In this document: in pieces, positions 1 to 11,024 of the stretch
Layout: each line of letters starts with the position of its first letter
Numbering within the stretch: the stretch's first letter is position 1
NCBI GenBank assembly: GCA_030628225.1
Contig: DAOVRJ010000062.1
Location: 1 to 11,024, forward strand
Source: Candidatus Zixiibacteriota bacterium
GTDB lineage: Bacteria > SM23-81
DNA: 11,024 bases
Direction of reading: 5' to 3'
The notes under the pieces: model-generated
The model's input: only the letters and a program-made list of their open reading frames with translations
Databases searched by the model: none
Told to the model about the DNA's origin: nothing
Made by a program: the position numbers and the translations under genes

Positions 1-67
1 CCAAATCGGTGAAGATGCCCAGGTGGGCCTTGTCCGGCCGCGGTAGAATTGGCGAGTTAATGGTCAT
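1..67 (-). CDS. HAD-superfamily phosphatase, N-terminal fragment (probable glycosyl-3-phosphoglycerate phosphatase)
   Basis: Only the first 22 codons lie inside the window; the gene runs off the left edge. The start codon overlaps the stop of the glycosyltransferase gene by four bases (ATGA), indicating translational coupling. The fragment ends in GIFTDL, which matches the first HAD motif of mannosyl/glucosyl-3-phosphoglycerate phosphatases (usually FTDLDGTL, where the Asp is the nucleophile). In known pathways this enzyme removes the phosphate from glucosyl- or mannosyl-3-phosphoglycerate made by the GT81 enzyme, releasing the free compatible solute. The partner gene upstream makes the assignment more likely than the short peptide alone would. 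Catalytic residues beyond the first Asp cannot be seen. Confidence 0.6.
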   Translation of the reverse strand, partial: MTINSPILPRPDKAHLGIFTDL

Positions 68-1275
68 CTGGTAGCTTTCTCCGCGGCCTGCTCAAGCTGC
101 TCAAAGATATCACCGATGGCCGAGGAAACCCGGTTCCAGTTAGGGATCCTGGGCGTGCCCAGGGGGTCCTCCAGAAAAGTTTCGCCGGCGATGCCCAATC
201 CCCTGGCGAAAGTCTCCACGGCCCGTCCCTCAATATGCAGGGTGTAAAGGAGGCCGTTGATAGCCGCGTCGGCGGCATAACACTCTCTGGCGTCCTGAGC
301 CTCCCGGGTGTAAGCGCCGATGATGGTGGTCAGGGTCTCCCTGGTGAAGACGATTCCCAGAGAGGCCAGGGAGCGAAACAGGGTCTTGCCGATGTCAATG
401 CTCATTTTCATCAGACCCCGTTTGGGATCTTTGCTGGAGAGAGACTGGTGTTTGTGCTCATAATTGTGACAGAGCTCTACCTGGCAGACCCGTTTGGGGG
501 AGCAATTGCGAAATATCTCGCTGAGGATGCCCACCTCCAGCCCCCAATCGCCGGGTATGCGATTGATCCTGGCCAGTTCGGCCTCCATGCAGAATTCCCC
601 GGCCAGGGGATAGCGGAAACTGTCGATGAAGGTCAGAAGAGGCTGGGGACCGATCACTTTCAAGAAAGACCTAATCATGGGGAAGACGAACAGCCGGGTG
701 ACTCGACCGTACATTCGATCGGTGACCCGGCTGTAGTAACCCTTGCAGAACTCGTAATTCAGGTCCGGATTGACCACTGGATAACACAACCTGGCCAGCA
801 GCATTCGATCATAGTTGGCGATGTCGCAGTCATGAAGAGCGATGAGCCGACTTTTTCCGCTGGCCAGGACGTACCCATAGGCCATCCAGGCGGCGCGTCC
901 CTTGCCCTCGGTGCCGATGCGCAGGTGTTTTTCTTCCAGAAGTCGATAGATATTCTGCAGTCTCTTGCCGCCGTTCCAGATGATCGTTGTCTCCTGAGGT
1001 AAGGCGGAGAAGAATCTCTTGGCCTTCTGGAAATCGCTCTGTTTGGTGGTTCCGCCCAGCGAAACGATCACCTGACGCAGGTACTTTACTTTCTTAAGCT
1101 CCCGGATGATCCCGGGAAGGGCCTTGCCTTTAAGCTCGGAGAATAGAGAGGGCAACACCAGGGCGATAGGCCTCTTTTTGGCCATTCGTTCCAGCTCTGT
1201 CTCCAGAGAATCAAGATCTCGGTTGCCCAGGATATGCAGCGTGGTGACGCCCTCTGTCTGATAGAAATCGCTCAT
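64..1275 (-). CDS. gpgS: GT81-family glucosyl-/mannosyl-3-phosphoglycerate synthase
   Basis: This 403-residue protein resembles retaining GT-A glycosyltransferases that join a nucleotide-sugar (UDP- or GDP-glucose, or GDP-mannose) to 3-phosphoglycerate, the first step to glucosylglycerate or mannosylglycerate. Visible motifs are LPSL near residue 41 (nucleotide pocket), GKGRAAW at 124-130, the metal-binding DCD at 149-151 in place of the usual DXD, PLAGEF at 223-228 (acceptor region), WGLEVG at 244-249, and the His-rich HNYEHKHQ at 270-277 expected to supply a metal ligand. There is no signal peptide or membrane segment, so it is cytosolic. The start is supported by an AGGTGA ribosome-binding site about six bases upstream and by a good promoter. 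It overlaps the downstream phosphatase by four bases. Sugar specificity cannot be read from the sequence, and some GT81 enzymes accept both. The product typically protects against salt, heat or nitrogen stress. Confidence 0.75.
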   Translation of the reverse strand: MSDFYQTEGVTTLHILGNRDLDSLETELERMAKKRPIALVLPSLFSELKGKALPGIIRELKKVKYLRQVIVSLGGTTKQSDFQKAKRFFSALPQETTIIWNGGKRLQNIYRLLEEKHLRIGTEGKGRAAWMAYGYVLASGKSRLIALHDCDIANYDRMLLARLCYPVVNPDLNYEFCKGYYSRVTDRMYGRVTRLFVFPMIRSFLKVIGPQPLLTFIDSFRYPLAGEFCMEAELARINRIPGDWGLEVGILSEIFRNCSPKRVCQVELCHNYEHKHQSLSSKDPKRGLMKMSIDIGKTLFRSLASLGIVFTRETLTTIIGAYTREAQDARECYAADAAINGLLYTLHIEGRAVETFARGLGIAGETFLEDPLGTPRIPNWNRVSSAIGDIFEQLEQAAEKATR

Positions 1276-1359
1276 CTTAGGTCACCTTTCCCGGAAAGTG
1301 GTTGAGTTCGGAAAAGAAGCCGTACCAGTTGTATTTTCAGGCCGCGCAAATCCACCTTT

Positions 1360-1388
1360 AGAATAAAAAAGTTTACCAGAGATGTCAA
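1360..1388 (-). promoter_or_regulatory. Sigma70-type promoter of the glycosyl-phosphoglycerate operon
   Basis: Reading the minus strand, a perfect -35 box TTGACA (1388-1383) is followed after exactly 17 bases by TATTCT (1365-1360), a 4/6 match to the -10 consensus. Transcription would start near 1353, leaving a leader of roughly 75 bases before the ATG at 1275. No riboswitch-like fold was recognised in that leader. Confidence 0.65.
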
Positions 1389-1429
1389 GGATTTTCCCCC
1401 TCTCGGCTTTGAAGGGGGGACCGGGGTGT

Positions 1430-1454
1430 AAAAAGGGCTTGCTTTTTTGCCCTT
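1430..1454 (-). terminator. Possible intrinsic terminator or insulator hairpin
   Basis: On the minus strand AAGGGC (1454-1449) can pair with GCCCTT (1438-1433) across a ten-base loop, and the right arm continues into a short T-run. It lies upstream of the gpgS-like promoter, so it could stop antisense transcription coming from the MATE side. The stem is only six pairs. A second G/C-run hairpin (CCCCCT at 1396-1401 with AGGGGG at 1413-1418) lies between it and the promoter. Nothing else was recognised in 1276-1655 apart from the promoter. Confidence 0.3.
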
Positions 1455-1655
1455 GAGGCCGTAGAATGAACTAATTAGATGAATTCTTTCCTGGATGTGT
1501 AGAGGTTGTTTCCGCGAAAAAACCAGGGGGACGGGCAGACTCAAGGGGGCCGTCGTCCTGCGTTGTTTCCGATGGCTGTGCAGGGAAGCTGGCCTCTCTT
1601 TTTATGATCGTGCCGGTGGATGTGCCGGAATGAGCCAAACGGAGAAAATCTGTCC

Positions 1656-3020
1656 ATGATGCCGTCCCAGAACGGATCTCGGTCCCATCTGCTCAGCGGC
1701 TCCATCCCCGGATCCCTGCTGCGTCTCTCCCTGCCCATTATGGCCACATTTCTGCTGCAGACCCTGTACAGCATGGCCGACGCCTTCTGGTTGGGTAAAC
1801 TGGGCCGGGAGGCCATCTCGGCGCCGGGCATCTCCTTTCCGATCATCTTTTTATTCGTCTCCTTCGGGGCCGGATTTTCCGTGGCCGGCACCAGCTTGGT
1901 GGCCCAGTATACCGGCAGCGGCCAGCGGGACCAGGCCAACCTGGCGGCCGGCCAGACCTTCATTTATCTGCTCTTCGGGGCTATCTTTGTCTCTGTGGTG
2001 GGTATGCTGGTCTCGGACCCCATCCTTCGCCTGATGCATACGCCGGAGGATGTCTTCGTCAACGCCAGCGCCTACCTGAGGATAATCTTCTCTGGCATTC
2101 CCTTTATGGCCATCTCCTTTGTCTACGGAGGCATCATGCGCGGCGTGGGAGATGCCGTAACTCCCATGATCATAGATATGGCGGCCAACCTGCTGAACAT
2201 CCTGCTGGACCCCCTTCTTATCTTCGGCTGGGGGCCATTCCCCCGGATGGAGGTGGCCGGCGCCGCCACGGTGACCGTGTGCTCCCGGATCCTGGCCTCC
2301 ACTGCCTGTGTGATCCTGCTGCTATCCGGCTCCCGCGGGTTGAAGGTCCGCTGGGCTCAGATGCGGCCCCGCTGGAAGTATCTGGGCAGGATCATGCGCA
2401 TAGGTATGCCTGCGGCAGTGGGCCAGTCAGGAGCCTCGCTGGGCTTCATGGTCACACAGGGATTCGTCAACTCTTTCGGCTCGGTGGTGGTCAGTGCCTT
2501 CACCGTTGCCGTGCGAATCATACATTTTCTGAACGTTCCCAGCATGGGCCTCAGCGCAGGGGCAACGGCCCTGATCGGTCAGAACCTGGGAGCAGGTAAG
2601 GTGAAGCGAGCCGAGAAGACCATTTGGTGGGCAGTAGGCATGGTGGCGGCATTCCTGGCTGTTGGCTGTACCATACTGGTTTTTTACAGCCAGCCGGTGA
2701 TCAGGCTGTTCATAGACGACGCTCAGGTGGTGGCCCAGGGAGTGATTCTGTTTCGGATTATCTCCTACTCGGTCTTTTTCTTCGGCATCATCATGGTGGT
2801 CTTTGCCGCCTTTCAGGGGGCGGGGAAGACCTCGCCGGTGATGTATCTGTCCATAGGCCGCCTGTGGTTGCTGCGTATCCCCATCGCCTATGTGCTCTGT
2901 TTCCTCCTGGCCTGGGGACCATTGGGTCTGTGGTGGGCAATGTTCGTCTCCAACGTGATCTCCTGCATAGCCGGGCTGTTATGGTTCCGGCGAGGGACCT
3001 GGAAGCGGAAGGTGATTTGA
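1656..3020 (+). CDS. MATE-family multidrug/cation antiporter
   Basis: The 454-residue protein is almost entirely hydrophobic, consistent with the 12 membrane helices of MATE transporters, which export cationic compounds in exchange for Na+ or H+. Family hallmarks are RGVGDAVTPM at 162-171, the hinge-region GQNLGAGKVKRA near 308-319, and the second-half counterpart FQGAGKTSPVMYLS at 386-399. This pair of matching motifs reflects the internal two-fold repeat. The ATG at 1656 is preferred because GGAGAA at 1641-1646 lies nine bases upstream and the length fits the family; an in-frame ATG at 1620 would add 12 residues that look unrelated. A second ATG follows at once at 1659. The gene is divergent from the gpgS-like operon and is followed by repeat-rich noncoding DNA, so it is probably transcribed alone. 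The substrate cannot be predicted. Confidence 0.9.
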   Translation: MMPSQNGSRSHLLSGSIPGSLLRLSLPIMATFLLQTLYSMADAFWLGKLGREAISAPGISFPIIFLFVSFGAGFSVAGTSLVAQYTGSGQRDQANLAAGQTFIYLLFGAIFVSVVGMLVSDPILRLMHTPEDVFVNASAYLRIIFSGIPFMAISFVYGGIMRGVGDAVTPMIIDMAANLLNILLDPLLIFGWGPFPRMEVAGAATVTVCSRILASTACVILLLSGSRGLKVRWAQMRPRWKYLGRIMRIGMPAAVGQSGASLGFMVTQGFVNSFGSVVVSAFTVAVRIIHFLNVPSMGLSAGATALIGQNLGAGKVKRAEKTIWWAVGMVAAFLAVGCTILVFYSQPVIRLFIDDAQVVAQGVILFRIISYSVFFFGIIMVVFAAFQGAGKTSPVMYLSIGRLWLLRIPIAYVLCFLLAWGPLGLWWAMFVSNVISCIAGLLWFRRGTWKRKVI

Positions 3021-3065
3021 GGAAGTTAAGAGAGTTTAGCGAGTTTGGAGAGTTCTGAGAGTTAG
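3021..3065. repeat. Five-copy 9-bp tandem array (GAGAGTTNN)
   Basis: Directly after the MATE stop codon come five consecutive nonamers at 3021, 3030, 3039, 3048 and 3057, all with the core GAGTT or a near match and two variable last bases. It is the only array in the window with a clear 9-bp rather than 7-bp period. It is followed by GTTAGGAAAAAGCA (from 3061), which recurs with one change at 7185-7198. Confidence 0.7.
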
Positions 3066-3074
3066 GAAAAAGCA

Positions 3075-3102
3075 GATGCTGGATCCTGGATGCTGGATCC
3101 TG
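3075..3102. repeat. Four-copy 7-bp tandem array (GATNCTG)
   Basis: Four perfect-length heptads alternate G and C at the fourth position, so the array is also two exact copies of a 14-mer. The same GATNCT word builds the array at 10633-10660. Both arrays are followed within a few bases by GTTAA. Confidence 0.8.
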
Positions 3103-3139
3103 GTTAAAGGCAAATACAATGAGGCAAAGTATAGAGGGC

Positions 3140-3220
3140 GAGACTCGGGAATCGGTAATCGTAAAATACAGCATAAAGTCCGTTGGTTTTACGAATCTCG
3201 AGTCTCGAATCCCGAACCCC
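3140..3220. repeat. Inverted pair of 7-bp word arrays
   Basis: The left arm (3140-3160) contains three heptads that, read on the other strand, have the form GANTNCC/GAGTCTC. The right arm (3193-3220) contains four heptads of consensus GAATCYC. The arms are imperfectly complementary and are flanked by complementary GTAAAA (3161-3166) and TTTTAC (3187-3192), so the unit could fold into a hairpin with a loop of about 20 bases. Confidence 0.65.
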
Positions 3221-3278
3221 GCTTTTTTGCGGCCGAGGAAGGCCTTTAGCGATGGAATGACCACGGCTACACAGTTTG

Positions 3279-3310
3279 TGCTTGTGATTTTAGCCTATTT
3301 TTTTTATATT
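3279..3310 (+). promoter_or_regulatory. Promoter of the GltD-like/PorA-like/PorB-like operon
   Basis: TTGTGA (3282-3287, 4/6 to the -35 consensus) and TATATT (3305-3310, 5/6 to the -10 consensus) are separated by exactly 17 bases. The expected start near 3317 gives a leader of about 90 bases. The 12-mer TGCTTGTGATTT starting at 3279, which contains the -35 box, is repeated exactly at 7444 with the same distance to an identical -10 box. The gap 3021-3408 otherwise holds repeat arrays and no convincing gene. Confidence 0.65.
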
Positions 3311-3408
3311 ATCAAATTAGCAGGAATATGTTTGCGGATTGATGAAAAGGATAAAATGGTAGAGTCTCTGAAGTCTGTGAGCGTGCAGAGGCTTAGCAGA
3401 AAGCTTCC

Positions 3409-5130
3409 ATGACACAAAAAACTGAGCAGAGCAGATCACCCAGCGAGCCGTATTCATCCCCTCATGCCCAGGTTCCGGAGAGGCATGCCTCTGGGCCAAA
3501 TACCCCCTTCCAGCACCCGGAACCCTATTTCAACGACAAAACATCGCCCTGCAATATGGGATGCCCTGCCGGCGAGGATATCGTGGAGGCCATCTACTTA
3601 ACGGCCGAAGGGCGATTTCAGGAGGCCTGGGAGCTGATTTTGCAGGAGAACCCGTTTCCCGGCGTGTGCGGGAGAGTGTGTCCCCATCCATGTGAGAGCG
3701 AGTGCAACCGCAGGGAATTGGATGGGGCCATCTGCATACATGCTGTGGAGAGATTCTTGGCCGACTACGGACGGAGCATTCCGCGTTCCCGGCCCAAGTC
3801 CAGGCCTCAGAGAAGCAAACAGGTGGCCATTGTGGGATCCGGGCCCGCCGGGCTTTCTTGCGCCTATCACCTGGCTCTGATGGGCTATGGAGCCACCGTT
3901 TTCGAGGCTTTGCCCAAGGCCGGCGGGATGCTGCGGGTAGGCATACCCCGATACCGGTTGCCCCGGGCGGTGCTGGATCAGGAGATAGCCGACATCAGAG
4001 CCCTGGGTGTGGAGATCAGGACAAATACTTTGGTGGGCAGGGATATAACTCTGGATCAATTGAGAGGCTTCGACGCTCTATTTATAGCCACGGGTTTTCA
4101 CCGCGGCCAAAAGATGGATGTGCCCGGAGAAGAAGCCAGGGGAGTTTTCTCCGGTCTGGAGATATTAAAACGGGTCAGTCTCGGAGAGAAGATCAGGATC
4201 GGGGAGCAGGTTGCCGTCATCGGTGGCGGGAATACGGCGGTGCACGTGGCCCGCTGCCTCCTTCGACTGGGATGCCGGCCGACCATCCTCTATCGTCGCA
4301 GCAGGGGCGAGATGACAGCTATAGACAAGGAGATCAATGGTGCCCAGGAGGAAGGAATCGAGATAATCTGTCTGGCGGCTCTAACCCAGATTCTGGTTCG
4401 GGGGGGATGGGCAAAGGGTGTGGAATTCGTAAAGATGAGGCTGAGCAGGCCGGACGAGAGCGGTCGTCGACGTCAGGTTCCCAAAAAGGGGTCCAACTTT
4501 TGGCTGAAGGTGGATGGTGTTGTCTCGGCAATCGAGGAGCTTGCGGACATCGAATTTCTGCCCGACGACATTAAATCTGAAAGCCAGGGTATTCTCGTCG
4601 AAAGAGGATGCTTCACCAGTCGGAAAGGAGTTTTCGCCGGAGGAGATGTGGCTACCGGAAGAGCTACCGTTGCTCATGCCATAGGTTCCGGCAATAAGGC
4701 AGCCCTGGCCATCGAACGATACCTGAAGGGAGAGGATTTCTTCTCCATTCCGGAAAGTTTGGGAACGGACCAGATCCTTCCCCGGAAGGCGGATTCCGGC
4801 GTGGTCCGGTTTAATGACTTGAACCCGGTCTATTTTAAGAAGGAGTTGCCGGTGCCTTTGCGGGCCAGGCCGGTGAAGACACGAGTTAAAGGTTTTAAAG
4901 AGGTCTACTCGGGTTATAAAGCAGAGGAGATCGTGACTGAAGCTCAGCGCTGCTTCAGCTGCGGAGTCTGCAATATGTGCGACAACTGCCTGATCTTCTG
5001 CCCGTGTATTGCCATCTCACGCCGGCGCGGTAAATTCGGCTATAAGATCGATGTTACCTCCTGCGATGGCTGCGGCATATGCGTTCAGGAGTGCCCCCGG
5101 GACGCGCTGTCTTTTCGGAAGGTGCCCTAA
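3409..5130 (+). CDS. GltD-like FAD/NAD(P) oxidoreductase with N- and C-terminal iron-sulfur domains
   Basis: The 573-residue protein has the architecture of the glutamate synthase small subunit (GltD) with an added ferredoxin module. Residues 1-40 are a polar Ser/Pro-rich extension. Cys48, Cys52, Cys87, Cys91, Cys95 and Cys99 form the GltD-type [4Fe-4S] domain. GSGPAG (143-148) binds FAD, VIGGGNTA (270-277) binds NAD(P), and GGDVATG (411-417) is the second FAD motif. The tail has Cys515, 518, 521, 524, 527, 531 and 533, then Cys552, 555, 558 and 562, resembling a two-cluster ferredoxin with additional cysteines. No glutamate synthase large subunit lies nearby, so glutamate synthesis is unlikely. 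The stop codon TAA shares its last base with the ATG of the PorA-like gene, which suggests that it feeds or draws electrons from that pair. Inference: it moves electrons between NAD(P)H and a PorAB-type partner or ferredoxin. It would be cytosolic. No strong ribosome-binding site precedes the ATG. Confidence 0.85.
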   Translation: MTQKTEQSRSPSEPYSSPHAQVPERHASGPNTPFQHPEPYFNDKTSPCNMGCPAGEDIVEAIYLTAEGRFQEAWELILQENPFPGVCGRVCPHPCESECNRRELDGAICIHAVERFLADYGRSIPRSRPKSRPQRSKQVAIVGSGPAGLSCAYHLALMGYGATVFEALPKAGGMLRVGIPRYRLPRAVLDQEIADIRALGVEIRTNTLVGRDITLDQLRGFDALFIATGFHRGQKMDVPGEEARGVFSGLEILKRVSLGEKIRIGEQVAVIGGGNTAVHVARCLLRLGCRPTILYRRSRGEMTAIDKEINGAQEEGIEIICLAALTQILVRGGWAKGVEFVKMRLSRPDESGRRRQVPKKGSNFWLKVDGVVSAIEELADIEFLPDDIKSESQGILVERGCFTSRKGVFAGGDVATGRATVAHAIGSGNKAALAIERYLKGEDFFSIPESLGTDQILPRKADSGVVRFNDLNPVYFKKELPVPLRARPVKTRVKGFKEVYSGYKAEEIVTEAQRCFSCGVCNMCDNCLIFCPCIAISRRRGKFGYKIDVTSCDGCGICVQECPRDALSFRKVP

Positions 5131-6284
5131 TGAAGAAGATGCTGACGGAAAAGGAAGCCGTTTCCTGGGGAGCATATCGCTCTCGTGTGCAGGTCATCGC
5201 CGCATCTACACCTGAAGATCTCATCGTTGAGGAATTGGCCACTCTCTGCACCGAGGATAAGAGGGGGGCTAAATTCGTCATGGTGAGGTCTGAGCAGGCT
5301 GCTCTGGCCGTAGGCGTCGGCGCATCGGCCACAGGAAGCAGAGTCTTCACTGTTGCTTCGGCTCACAGCTTGGTCCCGATGCACGAGCTGCTCTACAAGG
5401 CATCCCTGAGCCGATTGCCGGTTGTCGTGGTCGATATCAATCGGGCTATGGTCCCCGGGGGATTGACCTGGACTGGCCAGATAGACTCTTTGGCCCATAG
5501 AGACACTGGCTGGTTCCAGTTCCACTGTGAGAGCAGCCAGGAGGTTATGGACACGATAATCCAGGCCTACAGGATCTCGGAGCAGGTTCTGTTGCCAGGC
5601 ATTGTTGTCCTGGCAGCATCCGCTGCTTCTCACGCAGTAAAGCCTGTAGACATTCCCAACCAGAAGAGCGTGGACCGCTATTTGAAGCCATGCCGGCTCA
5701 TAAACAAGCTGGATGTGAACGATCCCCATTCCTTTGCTGTCCTGGACACCCCTGAGAACTGCTATGAATCTTATTACAAGATGCAAAAAGCCATGGGAAA
5801 AGCCCTTCAGGTGGCTGAGAAGGCCGACGATGATTACGGCAAGCTATTTGGCCGGGGGTATGGTCTGGTGGAGAAATACCGCTGCCAGGGTGCGGAGACG
5901 ATTTTAGTGACATATGGCACTATCACCGGGACGGTCCGGGAAGTGGTCGACCAGCAAAGGGCCCGGGGGAAGAAAGTAGGTCTGCTGAAAGTCAGGCTAT
6001 TTCGTCCCTTTCCGGCAAGACTTATCAGGTCAGCCCTTAGCAAAGCCAGGAAAGTGGCCGTCATAGACGGCGAGGTTTCCCCCGGCAGCGGAGGAATTTT
6101 GCATCAGGAGGTCACATCGTCCCTGTTCAAGGTCAAGCCCAGGTTAAAGGCGGCTGTCTTCGGCTTTGTGGTCGGACTCAGCGGTGATGACATAGCGCCG
6201 GACATAATACAGAAGGTGGTCGATTACACCACAAAGCGCCAGGAGCCAGAGGAGAAAGTTATCTGGTTAGGAGTGAAGCGGTGA
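5130..6284 (+). CDS. PorA-like alpha subunit with altered substrate motif
   Basis: This 384-residue paralogue of the downstream PorA aligns nearly end to end (386 residues there). It keeps the Glu of SEQAA (Glu55), which corresponds to the TPP-activating Glu in known PORs, and Arg105 in NRAM. It lacks the YPITP substrate motif: QVIPAYPITPQT of the paralogue becomes QVIAASTPED with two residues deleted. SAQG becomes SAHS (77-80) and TDQND becomes TGQID (115-119). The ATG at 5130 is chosen over in-frame starts from 5079 because it couples to the upstream stop (TAATG), has GGAAGGTG five bases upstream, and gives the family's N-terminus. It ends in a GTGA overlap with the PorB-like gene. Function is inferred only as the partner of that protein. 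Ordinary pyruvate oxidation looks doubtful. Confidence 0.8.
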   Translation: MKKMLTEKEAVSWGAYRSRVQVIAASTPEDLIVEELATLCTEDKRGAKFVMVRSEQAALAVGVGASATGSRVFTVASAHSLVPMHELLYKASLSRLPVVVVDINRAMVPGGLTWTGQIDSLAHRDTGWFQFHCESSQEVMDTIIQAYRISEQVLLPGIVVLAASAASHAVKPVDIPNQKSVDRYLKPCRLINKLDVNDPHSFAVLDTPENCYESYYKMQKAMGKALQVAEKADDDYGKLFGRGYGLVEKYRCQGAETILVTYGTITGTVREVVDQQRARGKKVGLLKVRLFRPFPARLIRSALSKARKVAVIDGEVSPGSGGILHQEVTSSLFKVKPRLKAAVFGFVVGLSGDDIAPDIIQKVVDYTTKRQEPEEKVIWLGVKR

Positions 6285-7132
6285 GACATGTTCTTCCCAG
6301 ATCGCAGGTGCAGAACTTCAAAATACCCAAGATGGAGATCATGGGCTCCGGGCACTCGATCTGCCCTGGCTGCGGGATCTCTTTGTCCCTGCGATACGCC
6401 CTGAAGGGCTTGGGCCGGAAAACCATACTGGTGGTTCCGGCATGTTGCTGTTCCAACGCGGATGGGTCATTGCTTTATACCGCCGCTAATGTCCCGGTTT
6501 TTTATGCCGCCTATGGGACTGCGGCCTTCGCTGTTTCAGGGATCAGGGCGGCTCTGGACTTCCAGGGAAAAACCGATGTTCAGGTGGTGCTCTGGGCCGC
6601 AGACAGCAATAACCGTAATTTCGAGTTCTGGACCATGAACGGAGCCGACCGGCGGGAAGAGAACTTCATCTGCGTCTGTTGTGATGACCAGGCCGCCATA
6701 AAGGCCCGGTTTCCTAAATCAGATTTCCGAGGAGGTCTGGTGGAGATCATGGCCGCCCGGGGGATCTCCTATGCGGCTACAGCCTCGGTAGCCTATCCGG
6801 ATGATTTCATTGATAAGTTCCATAAAGCCAAGAGGATAAATGGAACGCGATTGATTCACATACACTTGCCCTGTCCGCCGTTATGGAAGATCTCCGCCAA
6901 TCTCTCCATCCAGATGGCCAGACTGGCTGTTCAGACCAGGTTATTCCCCCTATATGAGGTGGAGAACGGGGAGAAGTACACAGTCAATGTCATCCCCGAC
7001 AGGGGGTTTCCGGTGGAGGAGTTCCTTCGTCCCCAGGGTCGCTTCCAGCACCTGACCAACATGCAAACGGAAGTTATCCAGAAGGATGTAGAGCGGAATT
7101 GGAAGAGTTTGCTGAACAGGGCTGCGGAATGA
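6281..7132 (+). CDS. PorB-like beta subunit with degenerate TPP site
   Basis: The 283-residue protein starts at a GTG overlapping the previous stop (GTGA), with AGGAG seven bases upstream. It is a paralogue of the PorB at 9723-10601, sharing ARLAVQTR and a PQGRFQHLT-type C-terminus. The cysteines expected to bind the beta-subunit [4Fe-4S] cluster are kept: Cys28 and Cys31 (CPGC), the Cys55-57 run, and Cys198 (LPCPP). The TPP/Mg site is not: WAGDGG of the paralogue is WAADSN (105-110), so only the Asp survives; YDNEAY is CDDQAA (134-139); and the following loop with NTGIQRS is about 19 residues shorter (13 residues against 32). Extra cysteines occur at 131, 133 and 134. The frame is open with good codon structure, so it is not an obvious pseudogene. 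It may be a catalytically inactive electron carrier or scaffold, or an enzyme with a changed active site. Confidence 0.8.
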   Translation: MRHVLPRSQVQNFKIPKMEIMGSGHSICPGCGISLSLRYALKGLGRKTILVVPACCCSNADGSLLYTAANVPVFYAAYGTAAFAVSGIRAALDFQGKTDVQVVLWAADSNNRNFEFWTMNGADRREENFICVCCDDQAAIKARFPKSDFRGGLVEIMAARGISYAATASVAYPDDFIDKFHKAKRINGTRLIHIHLPCPPLWKISANLSIQMARLAVQTRLFPLYEVENGEKYTVNVIPDRGFPVEEFLRPQGRFQHLTNMQTEVIQKDVERNWKSLLNRAAE

Positions 7133-7159
7133 CATTCCACCCCCCGACCCAACCCAATC

Positions 7160-7194
7160 AGGATTTAGGATTTAGGGTATAGGGGTTAGGGAAA
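7160..7194. repeat. Five-copy 7-bp array (AGGRTTT-like)
   Basis: Five heptads starting AGG run from 7160 to 7194, the first two identical and the rest drifting toward AGGGGTT. The array resembles telomere-type TTAGGG DNA, but the period is seven. It is imperfectly complementary to the array at 7251-7278. Confidence 0.75.
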
Positions 7195-7250
7195 AGCAAA
7201 ACATCAGGTTCTAAAACAAAGATTTGAAAGATGGAAAGATTTTGGTTCAC

Positions 7251-7308
7251 TAACCCCTAACCCCTGATCCCTAATCCCTGTCTTTCCGGGTTCCCTAACC
7301 GCTAACCC
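7251..7308. repeat. Opposing 7-bp array (TAACCCC), potential minus-strand G-quadruplex
   Basis: Heptads of consensus TRAYCCC occur at 7251, 7258, 7265 and 7272, with two further degenerate copies at 7295 and 7302. They are the reverse complement of the 7160-7194 array, so a stem with a loop of about 56 bases is possible between porB-like and porG. On the minus strand the block 7254-7278 has four runs of three or four G separated by loops of three or four bases, which fits the standard G-quadruplex pattern. Confidence 0.7.
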
Positions 7309-7422
7309 CTTTCCTTTTAGAATCCTCGAACCCCAATCTTTTCCAAGAGCACGATACCTATATAGGCTAAAAATCCTCGCTAAGTATCGATTTTCCACCA
7401 AAGCATACTCTCGCCTCCCAAA

Positions 7423-7438
7423 AGTGAAAAATTTCACA
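7423..7438. promoter_or_regulatory. CRP/FNR-family-like palindrome upstream of the porG promoter
   Basis: AGTGA-N6-TCACA at 7423-7438 matches the CRP-type consensus TGTGA-N6-TCACA at nine of ten defined bases, and GTGAAA-N2-TTTCAC is a perfect inverted repeat. It ends nine bases before the -35 box, with its centre about 51 bases upstream of the predicted transcription start. A regulator of the CRP/FNR superfamily is plausible but unproven. Confidence 0.4.
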
Positions 7439-7443
7439 TTTTC

Positions 7444-7475
7444 TGCTTGTGATTTCCGGCCAATTTAGCTATATT
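7444..7475 (+). promoter_or_regulatory. Promoter of porG (and probably porDAB)
   Basis: TTGTGA (7447-7452) and TATATT (7470-7475) are 17 bases apart, exactly as in the promoter at 3282-3310, and the 12-mer TGCTTGTGATTT is shared. Transcription would start near 7482, about 40 bases before the porG ATG. Upstream, the gap 7133-7443 holds only repeat arrays and the palindrome at 7423-7438. Confidence 0.65.
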
Positions 7476-7522
7476 CAAAATCCTGAATGATCTATGCCAG
7501 GGTGTCAAGAAAGAGAGTTGCC

Positions 7523-8065
7523 ATGATAGAAATCAGGTTTCACGGACGAGGAGGGCAGGGTACGGTGGTGGCCTCCAAGGCGCTGGCCAATGCCCTGATG
7601 ATGGAGGGAAAATGGGTGCAGACCTTCCCCGAATATGGGGTGGAGAGGAGAGGAGCGCCGGTCGTTTCTTTCACCCGCATCGACGATAAAAGGATCTATC
7701 TGCGCTGCAAGATCTACGAGCCGGACCATGTGGTGGTTATGGACCCCAAACTCATGGGGGCAGTGGATGTGACCGGCGGGTTAAAATCAGGTGGTTGGGT
7801 GATCATCAATTCCGAAAAAGATGCCAAAACCTTCAGGATGCTGGATAAATTCCGGGTGAGAACCTTTGATGCCAGCTCCCTGGCGCTCAAATATGGTTTG
7901 GGCTCCAAGGCAGCACCCATTGTCAACATGCCCATGTTAGGGGCCTTTGCCAAGATAACGGGATTCGTGGGTTTGGATGCCCTTCTGAAGGCCGTCCGCG
8001 AGGAATCGCCGATCAAGAAGGACGAGAACGTTCAGGCGGCCAAGGAAGCGTATGAGAGTATGTAG
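7523..8065 (+). CDS. porG: Pyruvate:ferredoxin oxidoreductase gamma subunit
   Basis: The 180-residue protein begins MIEIRFHGRGGQG, the diagnostic start of PorG/VorC-type gamma subunits, followed by the conserved EYGVERRGAPV segment near residues 37-47. The gamma subunit completes the CoA-binding part of the oxidoreductase, which converts pyruvate and CoA to acetyl-CoA and CO2 while reducing ferredoxin. An in-frame ATG at 7487 would add 12 residues, but it lies only a few bases past the predicted transcription start and the extension is not family-like, so 7523 is chosen. The ribosome-binding site is weak (purine-rich AAGAGAG). It is the only gamma gene for two alpha/beta pairs, and it is separated from porD by 218 bases of repeat-containing DNA rather than abutting it as in many POR operons. 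Confidence 0.9.
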   Translation: MIEIRFHGRGGQGTVVASKALANALMMEGKWVQTFPEYGVERRGAPVVSFTRIDDKRIYLRCKIYEPDHVVVMDPKLMGAVDVTGGLKSGGWVIINSEKDAKTFRMLDKFRVRTFDASSLALKYGLGSKAAPIVNMPMLGAFAKITGFVGLDALLKAVREESPIKKDENVQAAKEAYESM

Positions 8066-8130
8066 GGAGGGAATTGGGGGTCGGGAAAGACAAATTAACG
8101 TGGCCGTGCTCGTGTCCGTTGAAAAAGAAA

Positions 8131-8228
8131 GAGATCAGAGAGTAGAGATCAAGGTAAAAAACGCGGTCTTCCAGAAACCTTCATATGGGGTAGAGGGGTT
8201 GGGGCACTGATCTCTGATCTCTTATTCC
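8131..8228. repeat. Inverted pair of 7-bp arrays (GAGATCA / TGATCTC)
   Basis: The left arm has heptads at 8131, 8138 and 8145, two of them exactly GAGATCA. The right arm has TGATCTC at 8208 and 8215, its exact reverse complement, then a degenerate third unit. The arms could form a stem with a loop of about 56 bases inside the porG-porD gap (8066-8283). No confident promoter or gene was seen in that gap. Confidence 0.7.
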
Positions 8229-8283
8229 CCGTATTAAGTATCACGCCATACGATGCACGTATCAAACAAGGCGAGGATAAGAA

Positions 8284-8565
8284 ATGTCTGAAAAGATCGA
8301 GATCAGAGGCGAGAGGGACATGCCGGTCAATGCTATGTCATTGGGCCTGATGACCTGGAACAAAACCGGGTCGTGGCGCAACCTGCGGCCGGTGATCGAC
8401 TACGAGAGGTGCACCGGGTGTATGATATGCTGGAAGTTCTGTCCCGATGCCTGCATCAACATCGAGAACGAGCGGCCGGTAATAGACTTAGACTACTGCA
8501 AGGGCTGCGGTATCTGCGTTGAGGAGTGCCCCAAGGTTGCCATTTCGGTAGTGAAGGAGGAGTAA
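8284..8565 (+). CDS. porD: Pyruvate:ferredoxin oxidoreductase delta subunit (2[4Fe-4S] ferredoxin)
   Basis: This 93-residue protein carries two classical CxxCxxCxxxCP ferredoxin motifs: Cys43, 46, 49 and 53, and Cys72, 75, 78 and 82. One additional Cys57 is present. The N-terminal 40 residues, with SWRNLRPVID before the first motif, are typical of PorD. The subunit passes electrons from the TPP/iron-sulfur core to external ferredoxin. GAGG at 8272-8275 lies eight bases before the ATG. The next gene begins directly after its stop codon. Confidence 0.92.
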   Translation: MSEKIEIRGERDMPVNAMSLGLMTWNKTGSWRNLRPVIDYERCTGCMICWKFCPDACINIENERPVIDLDYCKGCGICVEECPKVAISVVKEE

Positions 8566-9726
8566 GTGAAAAAAGTCATAATGGGCAACCACGCTTTATC
8601 ATACGGAGCCATGATGGCCCGGGCCCAGGTGATCCCGGCCTATCCGATCACGCCGCAGACCGAGGTAGTGGGCTTACTCTCAGAGCTCTGTGCCGATGGG
8701 CTTTTGGATGCCAAGTTCATCAAGGTAGAATCGGAACATTCGGCCATGGCCGCGGCCATCGGGGCATCAGCCGTTGGCGCGCGCGCCTTTACCGCCACAT
8801 CGGCTCAGGGTCTAGCCCTGATGCATGAGATGCTCCACTGGGCCGTTGGGGCCAGGCTGCCGGTGGTCCTGGGTAATATCAACCGGGCCATGGGACCGCC
8901 CTGGACCATCTGGACCGATCAGAACGACTCGCTGTCCCAACGGGATACCGGCCTGATCCAGTTTTACTGTGAGTCAAACCAGGAGGTGCTGGACACGGTC
9001 ATCCAGGCCTTCAAGATCTCGGAGAATGAGAAGGTGCTTCTGCCGTCCATGATCGTGCTGGATGCATTTGTGCTATCGCATACCTCCGAAGTAGTGGATA
9101 TGCCCGACCAAAAGCTGGTGGACGAATACCTGCCATCATATAAAGCGCGCTATCGTGTTCACCCCAGCGATCCTCATTCTTTTGGCGCCCTGACCACGCC
9201 TGACGCCTATTATGAATTGCGTTACAAGATCGAGCGTTCGATGATGGAGGCCAAGGAGCTGATCAAAAAGGCCGGGGAGGAGTTCGGGGAGGTGTTCGGG
9301 CGTAAGTATGGTCTTATCGAGACATATCAAACAGAGGATGCCGATTTTATCATCGTGGCCTCGGCCACAGTCGCCGGAACAGCCCGAACAGTTATCGATG
9401 AGCTGCGCGCCCAGGGACAGAAAGTCGGGCTGGTCAGGGTAAGGGTCTTCCGGCCGTTTCCCTTCCAGGAGATCCGTCAGGCCCTCAAGGGCGCCGGCAA
9501 GGTGGTGGTCATCGACCGCAACATATCATTCGGTCACTCGGGGATCTTCTTCCAGGAGGTGAAGGCGGGCATGTACGACCAGCCCGACCGGCCGCCCATC
9601 TTCGGGTATATCGCCGGTTTGGGCGGGAGAGATGTGACCCCGGATACAATCAAAGAGATCGTCGCGGATGCCAAGGGCAAACAGAAATCGGAAGAGAATA
9701 TTATCTGGATAGGATTGAAACCATGA
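8566..9726 (+). CDS. porA: Pyruvate:ferredoxin oxidoreductase alpha subunit
   Basis: The 386-residue protein has all motifs expected of an active alpha subunit: YPITPQT (26-32) at the substrate pocket, Glu57 in ESEH next to TPP, Arg107 in NINRAM, and TDQNDSLSQRDTG (117-129). The NRAMGPPWTIWTDQND stretch favours pyruvate as substrate, though 2-oxoisovalerate cannot be fully excluded. The start is GTG at 8566, immediately after the porD stop, with a strong AAGGAGG ribosome-binding site at 8554-8560. It overlaps porB by ATGA. It is the intact paralogue of the gene at 5130-6284, and both end in a similar WIGLK/WLGVK sequence. Confidence 0.93.
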   Translation: MKKVIMGNHALSYGAMMARAQVIPAYPITPQTEVVGLLSELCADGLLDAKFIKVESEHSAMAAAIGASAVGARAFTATSAQGLALMHEMLHWAVGARLPVVLGNINRAMGPPWTIWTDQNDSLSQRDTGLIQFYCESNQEVLDTVIQAFKISENEKVLLPSMIVLDAFVLSHTSEVVDMPDQKLVDEYLPSYKARYRVHPSDPHSFGALTTPDAYYELRYKIERSMMEAKELIKKAGEEFGEVFGRKYGLIETYQTEDADFIIVASATVAGTARTVIDELRAQGQKVGLVRVRVFRPFPFQEIRQALKGAGKVVVIDRNISFGHSGIFFQEVKAGMYDQPDRPPIFGYIAGLGGRDVTPDTIKEIVADAKGKQKSEENIIWIGLKP

Positions 9727-10601
9727 AACTTACCATTCCAGAACAGGAACTGATGTGTTCAGGCCATCTGGCCTGTCAGGGATGTGGGGCCACTCTGGCC
9801 ATGCGTTATGCCTTGAAGGCGCTGGGCAAGAACACAGTTCTTTCCATCCCGGCCTGCTGCTGGTCAGTGGTCGATGGCCCGTTTCCATATACCTCGCTTG
9901 ATGTGCCCATCTTCCATACCGCTTTTGAGACGGCTGCCTCAGCGGCCTCGGGGATGAAGGCCGGCCTGGAGATGTTGGGCGATGATGATGTCCAGGTGGT
10001 AGCCTGGGCCGGCGACGGGGGAACCTTCGACATCGGAATTCAGGCTCTTTCCGGAGCGGCCGAGCGTAATGACAACTTCATCTACATCTGCTATGACAAC
10101 GAAGCGTACATGAACACGGGGATCCAGCGTAGCTCGGCAACGCCCTGGAGATCATGGACCACAACCACCCCGGAGAAGCACCCCAAGGAGACCCCCAAAA
10201 AGGACATGGTCGGGATCATGGCCGCGCATCGGATACCCTATGTGGCTACCTGCTCCATTGCCTATCCTGAGGATATGATCAGGAAGATCAAGAAAGCCAA
10301 GGAGATCAAGGGCTGCAAGTTCATTCATGTGTTCGCTCCCTGCCCAACGGGCTGGCGCACCGCCCCGGAGAATTGTGTCAAGCTGGCCAGGCTGGCCGTG
10401 CAGACTCGGGTTTTTCCCCTGTACGAGATCACCAACGGCGTCGATTACAAGATCAACATCAAGCCGGCCAAGCCAAGGCCGGTGATCGAATATCTGAAGC
10501 CGCAGGGCAGATTCCGACATCTCACCGAGCAAGATGTGGCTCAGATCCAGCACACCGTGGACTGGGAATGGGAGCGGCTGATGAAGAGAGCTGCGGAGTA
10601 G
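9723..10601 (+). CDS. porB: Pyruvate:ferredoxin oxidoreductase beta subunit
   Basis: The 292-residue protein contains the complete TPP/Mg2+ site: WAGDGGTFDIG from residue 95 (GDG at 97-99) and YDNEAYMNTGIQRS from 124, with Asn126 as a metal ligand and a TPWRSWTTTTP loop after it. Cys18 and Cys21 (CQGC), the Cys45-46 pair and Cys207 (APCPTGW) are the expected [4Fe-4S] ligands. Together with PorA it forms the catalytic core that decarboxylates pyruvate and passes electrons on to PorD. The start ATG overlaps the porA stop. It is the intact paralogue of the degenerate gene at 6281-7132 and the last gene of the operon, followed by a terminator. Confidence 0.93.
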   Translation: MKLTIPEQELMCSGHLACQGCGATLAMRYALKALGKNTVLSIPACCWSVVDGPFPYTSLDVPIFHTAFETAASAASGMKAGLEMLGDDDVQVVAWAGDGGTFDIGIQALSGAAERNDNFIYICYDNEAYMNTGIQRSSATPWRSWTTTTPEKHPKETPKKDMVGIMAAHRIPYVATCSIAYPEDMIRKIKKAKEIKGCKFIHVFAPCPTGWRTAPENCVKLARLAVQTRVFPLYEITNGVDYKINIKPAKPRPVIEYLKPQGRFRHLTEQDVAQIQHTVDWEWERLMKRAAE

Positions 10602-10632
10602 GGGAGAGTTTACAGTTGAGATGAGAAAGGCG

Positions 10633-10660
10633 GATTCTGGATCCTCGATCCTTGATACTT
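10633..10660. repeat. Four-copy 7-bp array (GATNCTN)
   Basis: Four heptads at 10633, 10640, 10647 and 10654 share GATNCT. They belong to the same word family as the array at 3075-3102, over 7 kb away, and are likewise followed by GTTAA. Confidence 0.7.
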
Positions 10661-10743
10661 GTTAACAGAGAAAAAAACGATGCACGTTAGCTATCGTGTT
10701 CGAAGTTCGTATTCGTAGAAAATAGAGACCTAATAGGAATAGC

Positions 10744-10777
10744 AAAAAAGCCCGGCCGGGAAAGGTCGGGCTTTTTT
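10744..10777 (+). terminator. Rho-independent terminator after porDAB
   Basis: AAAAAAGCCCGGCC (10744-10757) pairs with GGTCGGGCTTTTTT (10764-10777) around the six-base loop GGGAAA, with only one G-U wobble. The GC-rich core and the T-run make a strong intrinsic terminator. The matching A-run makes it potentially bidirectional. It lies about 140 bases after the porB stop. Confidence 0.88.
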
Positions 10778-10783
10778 AAAGCC

Positions 10784-10825
10784 ATTGAAAATTGGAGATT
10801 GAGGATTTGAGATTGTAGATTTAAA
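10784..10825. repeat. Six-copy 7-bp array (ATTGNAG)
   Basis: Six in-phase heptads start at 10784, 10791, 10798, 10805, 10812 and 10819, all beginning ATT and mostly ATTG. The array begins a few bases after the terminator. No opposing array was seen for it. Confidence 0.7.
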
Positions 10826-10847
10826 TAGCGTGACCGCGAGGGAAGCG

Positions 10848-10922
10848 GATCCTGGATAAAGACGTTATTATATCATGGATATTTTCCAGCATCTTCGCTT
10901 TTTACCAGGATCTAGGATCAAG
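10848..10922. repeat. Inverted GATCCTGG / CCAGGATC words with 7-bp units
   Basis: GATCCTGG (10848-10855) is exactly complementary to CCAGGATC (10905-10912). Two heptads lie in each arm: GATCCTG and GATAAAG on the left, GATCTAG (10909) and GATCAAG (10916) on the right. The words belong to the same GAT-family as the arrays at 3075 and 10633. No gene was recognised between 10602 and the right edge. Confidence 0.55.
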
Positions 10923-11000
10923 CTTGCTATATTGTAGAAAAGGGTAGTTGAGCCTGTAAAAAAAGGCTATACTCCTTCTGATTTGAATTTTTGATTAGCA

Positions 11001-11024
11001 GCTCATTGATTTTCACCAATGAGC
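11001..11024. repeat. Perfect 8-bp inverted repeat at the window edge
   Basis: GCTCATTG (11001-11008) and CAATGAGC (11017-11024) are perfect reverse complements around an eight-base loop. The window ends here, so it cannot be told whether this is a regulatory hairpin, a terminator of a gene on the other strand, or part of a longer repeat. Confidence 0.5.

Follow-up and report, generated by a model that had tools for sequence, protein, structure and literature searches.

In the phenylglyoxylate:NAD+ oxidoreductase PadEFGHI of Aromatoleum/Azoarcus, an alpha/beta core of the pyruvate:ferredoxin oxidoreductase (POR) type, with gamma and delta subunits, is joined by an additional flavoprotein subunit, which passes electrons to NAD+. 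POR is likewise wired to a pyridine-nucleotide module in Por-Bfu, where the module is a HydBC-like bifurcating core (BfuBC) and the POR site is predicted to bind thiamine pyrophosphate (TPP) (PMC9304861). The beta subunit of 2-oxoacid:ferredoxin oxidoreductases (OFORs) binds the Mg of TPP through a Gly-Asp-Gly motif and an Asn downstream of it, and a Glu of the alpha subunit activates the cofactor (PMC5020499). Here we describe three adjacent genes, G, psA and psB (the trio), in a stretch of 11,024 nucleotides from Candidatus Zixiibacteriota bacterium (SM23-81; assembly GCA_030628225.1, contig DAOVRJ010000062.1, positions 1 to 11,024; GC content 0.545), referred to below as the window. The closest kind of system known is the OFORs with pyridine-nucleotide flavoproteins; the trio is maintained and unusual, and its TPP-less core is a new variant of that kind. 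The reading preferred here, with a probability of roughly 0.5, is that the trio serves the POR next to it as a co-regulated NAD(P)H electron module or scaffold without TPP.

The trio falls far under the Pad cut-offs (PadG, 237 vs 700 bits; PadI, 130 vs 700) and has lost the TPP site, and its flavoprotein is of the GltD type, not the HydBC type of Por-Bfu. The fold and core of psA and psB are those of the archaeal-type pyruvate synthase PorABCD of Methanosarcina acetivorans (9bt4) and of oxalate oxidoreductase (5c4i); however, the trio lacks their TPP site, and a GltD flavoprotein replaces gamma and delta. G resembles NfnAB and the GltD-type NADPH flavoproteins (9n5u, 5jca) in its flavin adenine dinucleotide (FAD), NAD(P) and N-terminal iron-sulfur (Fe-S) module, but it has another C-terminal tail and a POR-like partner instead of the usual partner subunits. 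Operons of the order PorC-G-PorA-PorB encode homologues of G, psA and psB arranged as in the trio, with a G that combines GltD with a PorD-like tail of two [4Fe-4S] clusters and belongs to NCBIfam PRK12771; dissimilar from the trio, these operons retain PorC, the TPP motifs and the PorD N-terminal segment. The open-access literature yielded no biochemical description of the PorC-G-PorA-PorB type, nothing relevant on a GltD-POR complex or a dead OFOR, and no account of an OFOR core retained as a scaffold after losing TPP.

All three genes of the trio are encoded on the plus strand as intact open reading frames (ORFs). G (3409..5130) encodes a GltD-like FAD/NAD(P) flavoprotein of 573 amino acids with a DPD-type N-terminal Fe-S region and a C-terminal PorD-like tail of two [4Fe-4S] clusters; psA (5130..6284; 384 amino acids) encodes a PorA-like pseudo-alpha subunit with POR_N and PFOR_II domains; and psB (6281..7132; 283 amino acids) encodes a PorB-like pseudo-beta subunit. 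G and psA overlap by one base (TAATG) and psA and psB by four (GTGA), and the GTG start of psB is backed by a homologous N-terminus in a sister genus (genome G003, another genus of the same family). An earlier note on this DNA had described three translationally coupled genes with these junctions, the first of them a GltD-like protein with FAD, NAD(P) and Fe-S clusters, and both descriptions stand: the ORFs and junctions were recovered, and G gives Fer4_20, Pyr_redox_2 and Fer4 domain matches and scores 536 bits against PRK12771, above the family cut-off of 516. The cluster Cys of G are common to its relatives, and its FAD and NAD(P) sequence motifs are kept. In the G of the sister genus (L057:8533-10254, minus strand), CRHP stands in place of the YRRS stretch that is usual for NADP phosphate, and this G may therefore differ from the window G in its pyridine-nucleotide preference.

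Judged from its residues, the loss in psB is concentrated on the cofactor site. The protein is homologous to the neighbouring PorB (47% identity), but GDGG is replaced by ADSN and the loop DNEAYMNTGIQRSSATP...TTTTP (DNEAYMNTG...TTTTP) is deleted; in the psB of the sister genus, GDGG reads GIEE. When residues conserved in at least 95% of 21 PorBs were taken as invariant (34 in the TPP region and 42 elsewhere), psB was found to retain 6/34 in the TPP region vs 35/42 elsewhere (Fisher p about 9e-9), and the sister-genus psB 14/34 vs 31/42 (p 0.005). Two divergent live PorBs retain 33 of the 34 residues in the TPP region, and GDG is present in all 48 of the other PorBs compared. The predicted psB fold is PorB-like (mean predicted local distance difference test score (pLDDT) 77; Z 27.9 and root-mean-square deviation 2.6 over 254 residues to M. 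acetivorans PorB, 9bt4_C), and one low-confidence stretch of the model sits at the missing TPP loop. These data bear out the impaired catalytic site proposed earlier, and the change is stronger than impairment. The proposal that the Fe-S cluster was retained fits the window, where the four [4Fe-4S] ligand Cys are kept (C28, C31, C56 and C198), but only in part for the sister genus, where the third is displaced; because of this displacement, the psB cluster is less likely to be an essential feature.

psA is homologous to the neighbouring PorA (47% identity), has lost two residues of the YPITP motif (S--TP), and reads RSEQAA for ESEHSA, with the catalytic Glu kept. Because the TPP site of psB and two residues of YPITP in psA are lost, the trio is very probably not an active 2-oxoacid oxidoreductase. 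No other case of a dead core was present among 45 loci from a pattern scan of 84,980 species, nor in 400 Chloroflexota genomes at the threshold used, and psB was found in neither of the other two genomes of the phylum examined.

PorC-G-PorA-PorB operons occur in Chloroflexota (with an Anaerolineales genome among them), Schekmanbacteria and Parcubacteria (loci L013, L014, L017, L022, L024, L028 and L092), and the type is rare (2/400 Chloroflexota genomes at the threshold used). The N-terminus of their G matches PorD (54% identity over 37 residues in L014, E about 1e-12; weaker in L028), and the C-terminus matches the two [4Fe-4S] clusters of PorD; because both ends match, this G is by its sequence a PorD with a GltD module inserted. 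TPP motifs are intact in the PorBs tested from these operons; the fused protein of L028 is unmatched by the YPITP pattern, and its beta part lay outside the test. That Parcubacteria locus (L028:137-4500) encodes PorC, G and then a single fused PorA-PorB protein of 742 amino acids, and the fusion argues for a single complex. In tree tests, a grouping of psB with its own PorB was rejected (approximately unbiased (AU) test, p 0.002), and a position on the PorC-G-PorA-PorB side was compatible (p 0.17). A recent duplication of the neighbouring PorAB was accordingly rejected for psB and is not favoured for psA (p 0.07). L013 also has a psB-like stretch, seemingly a short piece of a PorB C-terminus, which was left unused.

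Since the nearest relatives with live sites are these operons, and since the psB tree is compatible with them, the trio looks like a descendant of an NAD(P)-linked POR of the PorC-G-PorA-PorB kind that no longer has PorC, a TPP site or, in G, the N-terminal segment of PorD. The trio has no PorC of its own; PorC belongs to the gene set that follows, some 390 bases past the end of psB. The earlier suggestion that the GltD-like tail could replace the delta subunit suits the PorC-G-PorA-PorB type, in which G has both PorD ends, better than it suits the window: in the G of the window and of the sister genus the C-terminal part is present, but the N-terminal segment was undetected.

Two other arrangements with GltD-like parts were observed. 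A more distant genome of the phylum (L094, G001:C9:8000-16000; 1-7999, minus strand) encodes a KOR-type 2-oxoacid oxidoreductase (alpha, beta, gamma and a small protein), followed by a GltD flavoprotein of 763 amino acids that bears an HdrA2-like tail, and by an Fe-S reductase-like protein and HdrA2 in split parts; this is a second, independent OFOR-GltD pairing, possibly a bifurcating one. In G000:C220 (L064), an open frame of 897 amino acids has a NuoF-like N-terminal part and a GltD-like C-terminal part.

The gene order in the window is GpgS-like (minus strand), MATE transporter, G, psA, psB, PorC, PorD, PorA and PorB, and in the sister genus it is GpgS, MATE, G, psB, PorC, PorD, PorA and PorB. 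The interval between G and psB in the sister genus holds only a short ORF, which starts at a coupled ATGA and whose first 24 residues match the N-terminus of psA (score 52 vs at most 39 in 1000 shuffles). With this psA remnant lying between G and psB, it is very probable that the common ancestor of both genera carried the complete trio and that most of psA was later deleted in G003. The conserved adjacency that the earlier note had proposed as a check is thus partial; the full trio was found only in the window, but the sister genus keeps G and psB. Between the genera, identity is 67% for G, 52% for psB and 84-87% for PorA, PorB and MATE, and dN/dS (the ratio of nonsynonymous to synonymous substitution rates, approximate here because dS is near saturation) is 0.16 for G, 0.24 for psB, 0.07-0.08 for PorA and PorB, and 0.07-0.10 across the set that includes MATE. 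By these ratios, G and psB are constrained but relaxed. A pseudogene reading was rejected, because there are no stops, dN/dS is 0.16-0.24, and 0/2000 neutral simulations remain open.

A promoter-like element, CTTGTGATTT-N14-TATATT, is encoded upstream of G (3281..3310, plus strand) and matches CTTGTG-N18-TATATT; a second copy of CTTGTG-N18-TATATT lies upstream of PorC (7446..7475, plus strand), and each is conserved in G003. The longer form, GCTTGTGATTT...TATATT, is confined in the 2.34 Mb genome to the sites upstream of G and PorC. With spacers of 17 to 21 allowed, there are 7 matches to the shorter form in the two genomes, 4 of them before G or PorC, and there are 0 matches in two more distant genomes of the phylum. 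The one promoter that the earlier note assigned to the three genes is putative; general promoter scans performed no better than shuffles. The shared element, a candidate promoter, operator or both, is the best evidence here that the trio may work with the neighbouring POR. Upstream of PorC there is also a palindrome, GTGAAAAATTTCAC (7424..7437), identical in the sister genus, in which we see a likeness to a Rex operator core. A gene for a protein with a Rex-type DNA-binding domain is present in each of the two genomes; the link to Rex is only suggestive.

In the proposed mechanism, G would exchange electrons between NAD(P)H and its own Fe-S chain while held on the POR-shaped psB scaffold, with or without psA. 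The trio would probably be co-expressed with the complete PorCDAB next door and would most likely dock on it or on its ferredoxin, and electrons would move between pyruvate oxidation and NAD(P), with the direction of flow likewise presumed. This corresponds to one of two options raised by the earlier note, an NAD(P)H-linked conduit or regulator that docks on POR, and that option has indirect support: the flavoprotein is intact, the promoter-like element is shared and the neighbourhood is conserved. Several observations weigh against the electron module or scaffold. The segment missing from G is the part expected to dock on POR, and the structure model of G, built on a shallow alignment (mean pLDDT 58.5), is of low quality across the Fe-S parts, too low for cluster geometry. 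psA is deleted in the sister genus save for 24 recognisable residues, and its tree placement is weak (nearest to the PorC-G-PorA-PorB side, with a grouping with its own PorA at AU p 0.07). Finally, dN/dS of psB is about three times that of live PorB, an approximate figure given the near-saturated dS, and the sister-genus psB has one cluster Cys out of place. If true, the proposal would show how a POR that reduces ferredoxin can be connected straight to NAD(P), and ferredoxin/pyridine-nucleotide balance is a long-standing problem for anaerobes. The PorC-G-PorA-PorB operons, with GltD within the delta subunit, offer an enzyme with intact catalytic motifs for the direct pyruvate:NAD(P)+ question.

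The main rival is that the trio is a decaying relic, in which a redundant enzyme of the PorC-G-PorA-PorB type is being lost piecewise (first PorC, next catalysis, last alpha), only G or nothing still matters, and psB is weakly constrained. The absence of PorC from the operon, the reduction of psA to a remnant and the displaced psB cluster Cys in the sister genus, and TPP-site losses that differ in detail between the two genera are what such decay would leave; however, both genera keep G and psB as open, constrained frames, the invariant residues of psB outside the TPP region are mostly kept, and the promoter-like element is conserved at both operons, so that decay is a tentative explanation and somewhat doubtful. 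An unlikely arrangement is an asymmetric POR, in which the dead alpha/beta pair, or dead beta with live alpha, would form one half of the dimer and carry the GltD flavoprotein, and pyruvate electrons would reach NAD(P)+ via the dead half. Such a mixed dimer is possible because domains I, II and VI, i.e., alpha and beta, contribute most of the OFOR dimer interface (PMC5020499); in G003, which lacks psA, psB would need live PorA as its partner. A role as regulator or assembly factor, with the dead pair as a decoy or chaperone for PorA/PorB assembly and G sensing the NAD(P)H state, would suit the pseudoenzyme pattern, in which the catalytic site is gone but the core and C-terminal arm remain, and the promoter-like element common to the trio and POR, but it is improbable, as nothing specific points there and G has a full set of redox cofactor ligands, beyond the needs of a sensor. 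The second option of the earlier note, an active oxidoreductase that acts on a different 2-oxoacid or CoA compound with direct reduction of NAD(P)+, is very improbable despite the architecture of PorC-G-PorA-PorB operons with intact catalytic sites and the NAD(P) and FAD motifs of G, because it is opposed by the loss of the TPP/Mg site in both genera, with GDG and the DNEAYMNTG/TTTTP loop gone from psB, PI gone from the YPITP of psA, and no PorC in the operon.

The POR beside the trio, which appears to be active, is encoded on the plus strand by PorC (gamma; 7523..8065), PorD (delta, two [4Fe-4S] clusters; 8284..8565), PorA (alpha; 8566..9726), in which YPITP and ESEHSA are intact, and PorB (beta; 9723..10601), in which GDG and DNEAYMNTG are intact. 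A terminator-like hairpin with a T run follows PorB (10744..10777, plus strand). On the other side of the trio, the GpgS-like and MATE genes (64-3020 in the window; L057:10696-13710 in the sister genus) hold the same place beside the cluster in both genera. The spacers at 3021-3408, 7133-7522, 8066-8283 and 10602-10912 are full of degenerate short direct and inverted repeats with arms of 18-35 bases (e.g., GATGCTGGATCCTG, which occurs twice), and each spacer has different ones.

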